62,295 nt of DNA from contig JAVHYA010000024.1 of NCBI GenBank assembly GCA_031119395.1, positions 1-62,295 of the forward strand. Direction: 5' to 3'. Shown here piece after piece: positions 5,811 to 58,697 of this stretch. The stretch is from Pseudomonadota bacterium (GTDB lineage Bacteria > Pseudomonadota > Gammaproteobacteria > Burkholderiales > Burkholderiaceae_C). How positions within the stretch are numbered: the first letter of the stretch is position 1; each line of letters opens with the position of its first letter. Below the pieces are notes generated by a model. That model was not told the DNA's origin. It searched no databases and saw only the letters and a list, made by a program, of their open reading frames with translations. Both the position numbers and the translations under genes were made by a program.

Positions 5811-6703
5811 GGCGATGCCCGTCGGGCCTCGGCAAGGAAGGGAAGGATGTGCGAGAGCAGCACCGGCAGCGCGCCGGCCGGCAGGTCGTGCGCCATGCCG
5901 GGGATGGCGGTGAAGCGGGCGCCGGGGATGCGCCGCGCCGTGTCCTGCCCGCAGGCGAGGGGCACCAGGGGATCGGCGTCGCCGTGCAGCACCAGCGTCG
6001 GGCTGGCGATGCGCGGCAGCACCTCGGGCCGGCGCCCGGTGTCGGCGCCGATGGCGAGCATCTGGCGCACCACGCCGGCGGGGTGGTAGGAACGCCGCAA
6101 GGCGGCGGCGATGCGCTCGCGCGCCGCCGCCTCGTCGAAGGGCCAGCCGGGGCTGGCGATCAGACGCACCAGGCCCAGCGTGTGCTCGACCAGCGCGGCT
6201 TCGCTGGTGCCCTTGGGACGGCGCATGAGCGCCGCGCCGACGTCGCCCCGCGCGCCCGGCAGCCCGGCGGCGCCGCTGGAGCTCATCACGCTGGTCAGCG
6301 TGCGCACGCGCCGCGGCGCGGTGGCCGCCATGCGCTGGGCGATCATGCCGCCCATCGAGACGCCGATCACATGCGCCTCGCCGATGTCGAGCGCATCGAG
6401 CACGCCGAGCGCGTCCAGCGCCATGTCCTGCAGCCCGTAGGGCGCGCGCACGCCCAGGCCGAACTTCTGGCGCAGCACCTCCCACAGCAGGTTGCGGGTG
6501 CCGGCGTCATCGAAATGCTGCGACAGGCCGATGTCGCGGTTGTCGTGCCGCAGCACGCGGTAGCCGGCGTCGGCCAAGGCGCGCACGAAGGGCTCGGGCC
6601 AGGCGATGAGCTGCATGCCCAGGCCCATGACCAGCAGCACGACGGGGCCGTCGCCGCCCGTGTCCTCGACCTCGATGGGGATGTTGTTTGCTATTACTTT
6701 CAT
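5807..6703 (-). CDS. Alpha/beta hydrolase
   Basis: A 298-residue cytoplasmic alpha/beta-fold hydrolase. The nucleophile elbow is GVSMGG (near residue 117), the acid is probably Asp in [10 protein letters not shown], and the base is His in PGMAHDLP near the C-terminus. The oxyanion segment [15 protein letters not shown] resembles the MGLG subgroup annotated as esterases or AB-hydrolase-1 proteins; the substrate is unknown. Its ATG (6701-6703) and first five codons (MKVIA) lie inside a copy of the dispersed ~65-bp repeat, so the N-terminus was supplied by the element. No Shine-Dalgarno sequence is visible. The 3' end overlaps queF by four bases. Confidence 0.85.
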
Positions 6704-6751
6704 AGCTGCTTGCGCAAGTGGGGCGGGCGCTGCAGCCCGATTTGGCTTGAA
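6688..6751 (+). repeat. Dispersed ~65-bp repeat, copy A
   Basis: Copy of the family whose consensus is TTGCTAT, about six variable bases, ATAGCTGC, then GCGCA, CGGGCGCTGCAG, TTTG and CTTGAA. The head GCTAT...ATAGC is self-complementary. This copy matches almost throughout and covers the start codon of the minus-strand alpha/beta hydrolase. Confidence 0.8.
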
Positions 6752-6764
6752 GTCCCGCGGCGGG

Positions 6765-14401: not shown

Positions 14402-14466
14402 TTGCTACTTTTTTGATAGCTGCTCGCGCAGGCGGAACGGGCGCTGCAGGCCTGTTTGGCTTGTAA
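14402..14466 (+). repeat. Dispersed ~65-bp repeat, copy B
   Basis: Strong match to the consensus: TTGCTACT head, GATAGCTGCTCGCGCAG, then CGGGCGCTGCAGGCC and TTTGGCTTG. It fills almost the whole gap between the Nudix start and the cysM stop, so it forms the Nudix 5' leader on the minus strand. Confidence 0.85.
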
Positions 14467-18931: not shown

Positions 18932-19000
18932 AAATTTCAAGCGAAAAGTGGCTGCAGCGCCCGCCCGATGGGCGCAGACAGCTATCGATTTGATAGCAAA
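18932..19000 (-). repeat. Dispersed ~65-bp repeat, copy C
   Basis: Inverse orientation. Read on the minus strand it begins TTGCTATCAAATCGATAGCT and contains GGGCGGGCGCTGCAGCC, ending CGCTTGAAATTT. It sits seven bases after the Bug receptor stop. Confidence 0.85.
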
Positions 19001-24330: not shown

Positions 24331-24396
24331 CTGAGGCCAAAAATGGCTGCAACGCCCGCCCCGCTTGCGCGGGACGCTATGTTATCGATAGCAAAA
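24331..24396 (-). repeat. Dispersed ~65-bp repeat, copy D
   Basis: Inverse copy lying between the lolA stop and the rarA start. Minus-strand reading starts TTGCTATCGATAACATAGC and continues CGCGCAAG, GGGCGGGCGTTGCAGCC, TTTTTGGCCTC. It is two bases from the lolA stop. Confidence 0.8.
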
Positions 24397-33266: not shown

Positions 33267-33326
33267 AACGAAATGGTCCGCAAACGCCCGACCAGCGGGC
33301 GCTGACCGCTACTGATTCGATAGCAA
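33267..33326 (-). repeat. Dispersed ~65-bp repeat, copy E (diverged)
   Basis: Inverse copy between the convergent DUF1653 and lipoprotein genes. The head TTGCTATCGAATCAGTAGC is kept and the rest (CAGCGCCC, GGTCGGGCGTTTGCGG) is diverged. Confidence 0.65.
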
Positions 33327-36839: not shown

Positions 36840-36907
36840 TCGCTACAAATTTCATAGCTGCTCCCGCCCGCCAGTCCTGCGCTGGCGGGCTTTTTTGTTT
36901 ATAAGTC
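36840..36907 (+). repeat. Dispersed ~65-bp repeat, copy F
   Basis: The head CGCTACAAATTTCATAGCTGCTC matches in pieces; the second half has evolved into a hairpin, CCCGCCAG/CTGGCGGG, followed by six T residues, then TTTATAAGTCGAA. Confidence 0.75.
36866..36896 (+). terminator. Terminator within repeat copy F
   Basis: The perfect 9-bp stem GCCCGCCAG (36866-36874)/CTGGCGGGC (36882-36890) and six T residues end the acyl-CoA dehydrogenase operon 41 bases past its stop. Confidence 0.92.
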
Positions 36908-52079: not shown

Positions 52080-52144
52080 TTGCTACCAAATCGATAGCAT
52101 CCTGCGCCCGCGGTACGGGCGCTCCAGACCTTTTTGACTCGAAC
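52080..52144 (+). repeat. Dispersed ~65-bp repeat, copy G
   Basis: The head TTGCTACCAAATCGATAGC is followed by TGCGCCCGCGG, ACGGGCGCTCCAG and TTTTTGACTCGAA. It sits between the convergent Na/Pi and SBF transporter genes. Confidence 0.82.
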
Positions 52145-56787: not shown

Positions 56788-57591
56788 TCAGTACGTGCCG
56801 GGGTAGGCGCCGCCGTCCGCCAGCACGTTCTGGCCGGTGAGATAGCCGGCCTGCCGGCTGCACAGGAAGGCGCAGATGGCGCCGAACTCCTCGGGCGTGC
56901 CGAAGCGGCGCGCGGGAATGGTCTTCTTGCGCGACTCCTGGATGGCCTCGATGGTCTGGCCGGTCTTCTGGGCCGCGCCGGCCGCGGTGTTGCGCAGGCG
57001 GTCGGTGTCGAACGCGCCGGGCAGCAGGTTGTTGATCGTCACGCCCTGCGCGGCCAGGCCGCTGCGCGCCACGCCGGCCACGAAGCCGGTGAGCCCGCTG
57101 CGCGCGCCGTTGGACAGGCCCAGGATGTCGATCGGCGCCTTCACGGCGCTGGAGGTGATGTTCACGATGCGGCCGAAGCCGCGGGCCGCCATCCCGTCGA
57201 CCGTGGCCTTGATCAGCTCGATGGGCGTGAGCATGTTGGCATCCACGGCCTTGATCCACGCCTCGCGGTCCCAGCTGCGGAAGTCGCCCGGCGGCGGTCC
57301 GCCGGCGTTGGTGACGACGATGTCGTAGTCGGCCTGCACCGCGAACACGGCGGCGCGCCCTTCGGGCGTCGTGATGTCGGCCGCCACGTGCTTGACGAAT
57401 GGGCCGGCAGCCCCCATCCCACCTGCACGAGCAGCTATCAATTTAGTAGCAGCCGCCTCCAGCGCCTCGGCGCCGCGCGCCACGATCACGACGTTCACGC
57501 CTTCCTGCACCAGCGCCAGCGCGCAGCCGTAGCCGAGGCCCTTGCTCGCGCCGCACACCAGCGCCGTCTTGCCTGCGATGCCCAGATCCAT
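56788..57591 (-). CDS. SDR-family oxidoreductase carrying an in-frame repeat segment
   Basis: A 267-residue short-chain dehydrogenase fold. The cofactor motif GASKGLGYG (residues 14-22), VAADI, NAGGPPPG and the C-terminal LTGQNVLADGGAYPGTY are typical. Residues ~47-65 (ATKLIAARAGGMGAAGPF) are encoded by copy H of the dispersed repeat; they fall in the variable loop after strand 2, which tolerates insertions. The usual YxxxK reads SNGARSG, so the catalytic Tyr and Lys are absent, as in a known divergent SDR subgroup; the Ser is present in ITSSAVKAP. Oxidoreductase activity is therefore uncertain. Confidence 0.82.
   Translation of the reverse strand: MDLGIAGKTALVCGASKGLGYGCALALVQEGVNVVIVARGAEALEAAATKLIAARAGGMGAAGPFVKHVAADITTPEGRAAVFAVQADYDIVVTNAGGPPPGDFRSWDREAWIKAVDANMLTPIELIKATVDGMAARGFGRIVNITSSAVKAPIDILGLSNGARSGLTGFVAGVARSGLAAQGVTINNLLPGAFDTDRLRNTAAGAAQKTGQTIEAIQESRKKTIPARRFGTPEEFGAICAFLCSRQAGYLTGQNVLADGGAYPGTY
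57398..57452 (-). repeat. Dispersed repeat, copy H, inside the SDR gene
   Basis: On the minus strand CTGCTACTAAATTGATAGC, TGCTCGTGCAGGTGGG and GGGCTGCCGGCCC follow the family order. It is 55 bases long and read without a stop. Confidence 0.75.
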
Positions 57592-57758: not shown

Positions 57759-58682
57759 TCATTTTCCCGCGCGGGTGAAGACGAAGATGCCGGCGATCAC
57801 CAGCGCCGTGCCGGCCGCGATCCAGGCGGTGAAGGGCTCGCCCAGGATCACGACGCCCATGAGGATGGTCGACATCGGGCCGATCATGCCGGTCTGCGCG
57901 GCCACGGCGGCGCCGATGCGCTCGATGGCCATCATCACCGCGAGCACCGGCACGGCGGTGCACAGCGTGGCGTTGAGGACCGACAGCCAGATCACCTGCG
58001 GCGCCAGCTCGAACACCGCGCCCACCGGCCGCAGCACCAGGTACTGGCCGATGCACAGCAGGCAGGCCACGCTGGTCGCCAGGCCCACCAGCCGCAGCGA
58101 GCCCAGGCGCTTGACGAACTCGCCGCTCCACACGAGGTAGATGGCATAGCTCACGGCACTCAGGAAGACCAGCAGCGTGCCCCAGGCCGCCGCGCGGCTC
58201 TGGCCGATCTGCAGCTCATGGCCGAAGACCAGCATCACGCCCGCATAGCTGATCGCCATGCCCAGCAGTTGCCCGCCGCGGATGCGCCGCCCGTACACCA
58301 GCCAGCCGAAGAGCAGGACCAGCGTGGGGTTGAGGTACAGGATCAGCCGCTCGAGGCTGGCCGTGATGTAGGCCAGGCCGGCGAAGTCGAGGAAGCTCGC
58401 CAGGTAGTAACCGGTGACGCCCAGCCCCAGCACGCCCAGCCAGTCGCGCCGGGTCAGCGGCGGCTTGCCGCGGCCCGACCACCAGGCCATGACGGCGAAC
58501 AGCGGCAGCGCGAAGAGCATGCGCAGCATGATCAGCGTCACCGCATCCACGCCGTAGCGGTAGGCCAGCTTGACGATGATGGCCTTGCCGCTGAAGGCGA
58601 TGGCGCCGAAGGAGGCCAGCGCCAGGCCGGGTGCTATGGATTTCGTAGCTGCTTGCGCAGGCAGGGCGGGCGTTGCGGGCAC
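57759..58682 (-). CDS. EamA/DMT-superfamily transporter 2
   Basis: A 307-residue protein with ten hydrophobic helices in two EamA repeats (GAIAFSGKAIIVKLAYRYGVDAVTLIMLRM, and the later SVLNATLCTAVPVLAVMMAIERIGAAVAAQTG). The only in-frame start before the first helix is a GTG at 58682. It and the next 16 codons (PATPALPAQAATKSIAP) lie within repeat copy I, so the N-terminus was donated by the element. The substrate is unknown. Confidence 0.87.
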   Translation of the reverse strand: MPATPALPAQAATKSIAPGLALASFGAIAFSGKAIIVKLAYRYGVDAVTLIMLRMLFALPLFAVMAWWSGRGKPPLTRRDWLGVLGLGVTGYYLASFLDFAGLAYITASLERLILYLNPTLVLLFGWLVYGRRIRGGQLLGMAISYAGVMLVFGHELQIGQSRAAAWGTLLVFLSAVSYAIYLVWSGEFVKRLGSLRLVGLATSVACLLCIGQYLVLRPVGAVFELAPQVIWLSVLNATLCTAVPVLAVMMAIERIGAAVAAQTGMIGPMSTILMGVVILGEPFTAWIAAGTALVIAGIFVFTRAGK

Positions 58683-58697
58683 TTTTTATTCTGAAAG
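58631..58697 (+). repeat. Dispersed ~65-bp repeat, copy I
   Basis: Plus-strand reading GTGCTATGGATTTCGTAGC, TGCTTGCGCAGGCAGGGCGG, GCGTTGCGGGC, CTTTTTATTCTGAAAG. It covers the start of DMT transporter 2. Confidence 0.8.

Follow-up and report, generated by a model that had tools for sequence, protein, structure and literature searches.

In-frame copies of a dispersed repeat at one SDR coding site in Comamonadaceae: identity, distribution and probable recurrent gain

An SDR gene with an in-frame repeat copy

The stretch of DNA analysed here (the window) is 62,295 nucleotides long and carries on its minus strand an ATG-initiated ORF of 267 amino acids (56788..57591) that encodes a short-chain dehydrogenase/reductase (SDR) protein (Pfam adh_short_C2, E 1.2e-33; adh_short, E 2.8e-28). 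This gene is matched in 15 of the 15 genomes of the genus that were searched. Within it, on the same strand and in sense orientation, lies a copy of a ~65-bp dispersed repeat (57389/57393-57451; a profile built without the SDR copy gives 57393-57451). SDR codons 47-63 (57403-57453) read AATKLIAARAGGMGAAG and are stop-free. A blastn search of the own genome with positions 57340-57510 gives at least 40 matches including the segment itself (40 of 325 candidates were scored), the best non-self match having E 4.4e-10. An AlphaFold model of the protein with a mean pLDDT of 46 has a predicted helix at residues 41-56 followed by coil, and nothing else is drawn from it.

The original prediction held that these codons are a repeat copy with its frame kept, and this is confirmed. 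A profile of 14 own-genome copies, with the SDR copy excluded, recovers the SDR copy at E 2.3e-13 and 45.3 bits, while 2000 random synonymous recodings of the SDR protein reach a top score of 26.4 bits; the DNA match is therefore not accounted for by the amino acids. GC at third codon positions is 0.35 within the repeat segment versus 0.96 across the remaining gene. Equally poor codon usage occurs in 4 of 15,389 17-codon windows of the training ORFs, and three windows that start at SDR codons 45-47 reach this value, the SDR gene itself being among the training ORFs.

The repeat family in the window and in its genome

The repeat is present in at least 150 copies in its own genome (G000), and a broader profile finds at least 149 copies per genome in five genomes that represent four further Comamonadaceae genera, where its right half differs by genus. 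The majority sequence over 92 own-genome copies is TGCTATnGAATnGATAGCTGCTCGCGCAGGCGGGACGGGCGCTGCAGGCCGATTTGGCTTGAAA. Nine copies occur in the window at E 1e-3 or better with the profile that lacks the SDR copy. Besides the SDR copy, these lie at 6689..6752 (plus strand, E 1.6e-19) and 14403..14466 (plus, E 3e-19), both of which are themselves part of the profile, and at 18935..18998 (minus, E 2.9e-15), 24334..24393 (minus, E 1.3e-11), 33271..33325 (minus, a weak copy, E 8.6e-5), 36842..36904 (plus, E 2.6e-6), 52081..52143 (plus, E 9.2e-12) and 58632..58694 (plus, E 1.4e-13), where the last overlaps the upstream end of a transporter-like ORF (57759-58682, minus). Rfam searches of the window at gathering thresholds return a tRNA and no other match. 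The copy at 36842-36904 is diverged, with a longer hairpin and a T run in its second half; its hairpin is strong and GC-rich, as if the repeat had become a transcription terminator, and the copy is well preserved in G008, G006 and G001.

Each window copy is matched by one at the corresponding position in G006 (9/9) and G008 (8/8 of those covered), so that copies appear stable within the genus, with no visible jumping. Recent jumping within the genus was rejected in view of these shared positions, and mobility, implied by the term mobile element in the original prediction, is not shown for a repeat to which no transposase could be tied. In G001, the SDR copy and the copy at 58632 are the only two of the nine that are still recognised.

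A repeat of this kind could have a function of its own, such as protein binding or formation of an mRNA hairpin, and could be selected at the DNA or RNA level within the gene. A core around TAGCT is conserved in 67 aligned copies from six genomes, and a codon heuristic applied to 97 copies gives a one-sided coding signal for 51 and none for 24. Under the proposed hairpins, 75.5% of cells are paired, versus 24-48% when the hairpins are slid. Shuffles, however, reach the observed numbers of paired cells and the observed covariation in 148 and 117 of 500 cases, consensus folding is not clearly stronger than in shuffles (z 1.39 and -0.44), and the SDR segment drifts quickly. We consider selection for such a function improbable. 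Folding and covariation lend no support to an RNA hairpin as the conserved entity. A GCTAY/RTAGC palindrome can be seen on the left of the repeat, with hairpin pairs no more frequent than in shuffles.

The SDR site within the genus

The repeat is present at the SDR site in 6/15 genus genomes and absent in 9/15, and the same six have strong repeat matches (E 1e-15): 27 in G000, 18 in G008, 29 in G010, 5 each in G006 and G007, and 1 in G001, as counted with a profile that was made from G000 copies and is biased to their form, with the SDR copy included in the G000 and G008 counts. The remaining nine genomes have zero matches at this threshold. SDR proteins have 267-271 residues where the site is occupied and 262 or 265 where it is empty. 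In the genus alignment the helix residues are gap-free and the difference is confined to the loop; the repeat coincides in register with the last part of helix alpha-C and contributes a short added loop. Residues A47, A48, L51 and A53 are invariant in 14 aligned orthologues. Orthologues without the copy had been expected to show a gap of about 10-15 residues at this loop. Nine of the 15 genus genomes do lack the copy exactly there, but the gap amounts to 5 residues (262-aa proteins) or 2 residues (265-aa proteins), since in its first half the repeat coincides in register with codons of helix alpha-C.

Among occupied genes, the repeat segment changes faster than the gene around it. Third-position differences from G000, in the segment and in the rest of the gene, are 3/17 and 27/250 in G008, 6/17 and 45/250 in G010, 9/17 and 40/250 in G006, and 11/17 and 36/250 in G001. 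With such divergence within one genus, repeat-like DNA in distant genera is unlikely to be a single ancient copy. Concerted upkeep within the genus was rejected in view of the same drift. At locus L014 (G010), the SDR copy has 12 additional bases at its right edge, possibly left over from the repeat tail, which hints at in-frame trimming in the other genomes.

Distribution across the family

The family sample comprises 80 named SDR orthologues, the best of 540 confirmed relatives, together with the 15 genus genomes (95 rows), and a site is termed occupied when it has at most 3 mismatches in 21 nt of the repeat. The 21-nt match is bimodal: 31 rows have at most 3 mismatches, 1 has 4 and 63 have at least 6. 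A position-free scan locates the repeat in 28/31 occupied genes, always starting at nt 141, and in 0/64 other genes, with one further match on the reverse strand of L155. These results bear on coincidence, that is, on chance encoding of a helix peptide AAxKLxAAR by repeat-like DNA. Distant orthologues with the same residues over unrelated DNA were to mark the similarity as coincidental; similar helix residues do occur in copy-free orthologues, but the repeat DNA itself separates occupied from empty genes, and the bit scores (45.3 versus at most 26.4 in 2000 recodings) and third-position GC (0.35 versus 0.96) also make chance a negligible explanation.

Occupied rows include part of Xenophilus, Acidovorax (7/8), Diaphorobacter (1/2), Simplicispira, Comamonas granuli (1/3 Comamonas), Rhodoferax (5/8), Polaromonas (6/7) and three others, while empty rows include Variovorax (18/18) and those of Hydrogenophaga, Curvibacter and Limnohabitans. 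Occupied genes fall into three length groups (267-271, 264-265 and 274-279 aa). This recurrence at one site across genera was not anticipated by the original prediction. Occupancy is associated with nearby repeats: a flanking copy occurs at 21/25 occupied versus 4/55 empty named loci at E 1e-3, and stricter cut-offs leave 18 versus 3 (E 1e-4) and 17 versus 1 (E 1e-5). The flank profile is free of all 80 named loci, and Fisher p values range from 1e-9 to 1e-11 for rows that are related, with relatedness uncorrected.

An SDR tree built without the loop columns contains 93 rows, 30 of them occupied (L116 and L117 are omitted as duplicates of L013 and L016). The occupancy label changes at least 10 times on this tree, 4 of these changes being forced by supported branches, and a single occupied clade is rejected (p-AU 0.0014). 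Supported branches provide four independent pairs, for which random pairings give averages of 3.2 in the same direction, 0 in the opposite direction and 0.8 with no difference; four pairs are too few to reach significance. As a separate observation, a shared stretch resembling the left half of the repeat occurs in Variovorax L116, L122 and L123 and in Xenophilus aerolatus L151 (~1018, ~351, ~433 and ~324, minus strand), seemingly within a different coding region that lies ~9 kb away from the SDR gene.

A different history would have one ancient insertion in the family ancestor passed on vertically, with repeat-like DNA kept by concerted evolution among dispersed copies in some lineages and eroded elsewhere. 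The identical start nucleotide in the 28 genes found by the position-free scan fits this history, as does the way in which occupancy follows nearby repeats. Possible length-keeping relics point in the same direction: among empty genes, Acidovorax SUPP3334 retains 276 aa and two Comamonas genes retain 274 aa. Variovorax dw_308, also empty, has 267 aa, and its SDR DNA is still nearest the Xenophilus form of the repeat. Some empty SDR genes may thus be decayed relics. Against a single ancient insertion, the segment decays faster than the gene within the genus and is not kept up, occupied lengths split into three groups, and the tree, with its changes numbering at least 10, requires about nine losses. 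We consider one old gain with many losses conceivable, though rather unlikely.

In-frame copies in other genes

Copies read in frame are not confined to the SDR gene. By a codon-usage heuristic, which is not annotation, 97 distinct G000 copies comprise 7 with one coding frame on both sides and no stop, 4 likewise with a stop, 8 with the same strand in different frames and 3 with different strands; the 51 copies with a one-sided signal and the 24 with a signal on neither side make up the others. These 97 represent the surroundings of 90 of at least 150 copies plus the window, and derive from 103 matches after removal of those starting after model position 4 and of duplicate contexts. The seven in-frame hosts resemble ThiL, a biotin-dependent carboxylase linker, SDR, a small membrane protein, DapE, UvrD and a desaturase-YhhN fusion, where names other than SDR come from reading the sequence, and the Pfam search covered SDR alone. 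The copies in the desaturase-YhhN-like fusion and the small membrane protein are at G000 loci L111 and L070.

ThiL, DapE, carboxylase and UvrD genes were compared across the genus. Recognisable copies with 38-45/50 consensus bases are borne by G000, G008, G010, G006 and G007; G001 keeps the lengths of all four genes with no recognisable repeat there (best stretch 31/50). DapE has a clean 22-codon insert relative to G014, which is missing in 8/15 genomes, and G003 has a different partial insert. ThiL with the repeat exceeds that of the nine genomes without it by 3-6 residues, the carboxylase linker shows a difference of 1-4 residues (14/15 genomes aligned, with the partial L240 omitted), and UvrD is variable in a linker. 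Repeat-bearing genes seem to display two modes, addition and overlay.

Proposed gain and decay at the SDR site

Genus-specific forms of the repeat (dialects) provide information about origins. Six Xenophilus-clade SDR copies are nearest the Xenophilus dialect, with identities of 0.75-0.87 in the variable part versus at most 0.69 for any other dialect, and the SDR copy of L155 is nearest the Acidovorax dialect (0.75 versus 0.64). The dialect of the own genus is best in only 15/26 occupied rows (Xenophilus 7/7, with one strain counted twice; Acidovorax 4/7; Rhodoferax 3/5; Polaromonas 1/6; Comamonas 0/1), so separate origins are not established genus by genus.

Genes without the copy often resemble the repeat at the same place. 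Of the 64 SDR rows outside the occupied class, 34 have the site within the top 1% of positions, counted over both strands, for repeat resemblance, and 53 have it within the top 5%. The corresponding top-5% figure is 8/9 for ThiL. Prior resemblance is lacking at the carboxylase (0/8) and UvrD (0/9) sites, a point against the interpretation preferred below. These figures fit similarity-guided overwriting at structured sites, survival of copies only where the repeat peptide imitates the helix, or the presence of relics, three readings that the data do not discriminate.

Our preferred interpretation, to which we assign a probability of roughly two in three, is that a REP-like repeat has recurrently been written in register into one permissive coding site of the SDR gene, with codon decay afterwards. 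Several of the state changes on the gene tree would then represent separate gains with later decay, and several gains with decay are the most likely history of the site. A ~65-bp REP-like family, abundant in many Comamonadaceae, would have written itself into the SDR gene of the ancestor from which six genomes of the host genus (Xenophilus, judging from its named members) descend as a clade, in frame and over codons that were already repeat-like. Helix alpha-C would thereby have retained its A-A-x-x-L-x-A pattern while the downstream loop gained up to 5 residues. The gene would have remained open, with its segment now losing repeat-like codons, and the SDR protein presumably still works. Genes of Acidovorax, Diaphorobacter, Simplicispira, Comamonas, Rhodoferax and Polaromonas have the repeat at this codon too, with several state changes on the gene tree, which together suggest that the site is a recurrent and permissive target. 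Occupancy would persist where the repeat family is abundant and decay where the family has gone. At SDR and ThiL, partial sequence similarity may have aided the writing, through ectopic gene conversion or template switching, and plain insertion is probable at DapE. The stronger proposal, that short dispersed repeats can replace coding DNA in register through ectopic conversion guided by similarity and that the same enzyme codon was overwritten independently in several genera, each with its own dialect, is tentative and on balance doubtful. If true, proteins would vary through a recurrent, template-driven process distinct from both plain insertion and point mutation.

Relationship to known repeats

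In-frame coding repeats are already known from Rickettsia RPEs and from REPs in genes, and the Comamonadaceae case differs from these as a variant. The statement in the original prediction that such events are rarely described in bacteria is fair, although examples of this kind have been published. According to the available text of the relevant papers, Rickettsia RPEs and the coding palindromes of Wolbachia and Methanocaldococcus are short dispersed repeats found in frame in unrelated protein genes, where they are apparently tolerated (PMC10969869, PMC2996958, PMC3733652). The Comamonadaceae repeat is likewise short, dispersed and in frame within unrelated protein genes. It occurs in frame inside conserved protein genes (7/97 by the heuristic), and copy-free orthologues lack the extra residues (22 codons in DapE; 2 or 5 in SDR). 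Compared with RPEs as described there, its hosts are Comamonadaceae rather than intracellular bacteria, its length is ~65 bp and most examined copies lie outside gene frames. At SDR, ThiL and the carboxylase, the repeat overlays existing codons and adds few residues on balance, and one and the same SDR codon is occupied in several genera, which also sets it apart from the RPEs of these accounts.

GTAG/CGTC REPs are described as 20-40 bp elements of high copy number that are chiefly intergenic and sometimes intragenic (PMC3733652). REPs near the same recB site in two Xanthomonas species are the nearest precedent for a shared site in the portions of that paper available (PMC3733652). The Comamonadaceae repeat exceeds the 20-40 bp given for REPs, and its hairpins lack covariation support. 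BRE, as portrayed in the available text, is a ~90-bp element of Betaproteobacteria including Polaromonas, Acidovorax, Rhodoferax and Delftia; it is mostly intergenic, with some copies wholly within coding sequences and at most 29 counted in one genome (PMC3110155). Hosts overlap and both families have intragenic copies, whereas size and copy number differ, in a comparison made by description rather than by sequence. A literature search for a description of the present repeat gave PMC3110155 as the sole relevant paper among the matches listed.

In the literature as retrieved, accounts of in-frame coding repeats come mainly from Rickettsia and Wolbachia, with scattered REP cases. A culturable bacterial family now provides a single site in many occupied, empty and decaying states, in which one can trace how repeat-derived protein sequence is gained, is tolerated and decays. 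It also becomes possible to test whether repeats of this type enter genes by insertion or by overwriting.

Y1 transposase genes near repeat copies

A Y1 transposase is a candidate driver of the repeat family. A single Y1 transposase gene was found in G000, with a repeat copy at its stop codon. Copies also lie at the Y1 stop in G010 and G008 and, weakly, in G006 and G007, at the same offset in G015, G016 and G017, and upstream of the gene in G020. Such adjacency in several repeat-rich genomes recalls the REP/REPtron arrangement, as far as the sources describe it. No copy adjoins the Y1 gene in the repeat-bearing genomes G001, G018, G019 and G029 or at the loci of repeat-poor genomes. The gene is present in 14/15 genus genomes and 14/15 others, with and without repeats, and this equal presence in repeat-free genomes departs from REPtrons as the same sources depict them. 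The Y1 transposase was rejected as driver on these grounds, with no transposase tied to the copies, and it is a weak lead because of the adjoining copies.

A GGGGACAC motif follows the Y1 transposase gene, and motifs of the GGGGACAC type have been reported for TIR-type relatives. A TGTCCCC motif is kept in several relatives without a repeat at the Y1 locus. In L279 (G000:C15), positions 2154-2222 contain a decayed repeat copy together with a minus-strand GGGGACAC motif after the Y1 transposase gene.
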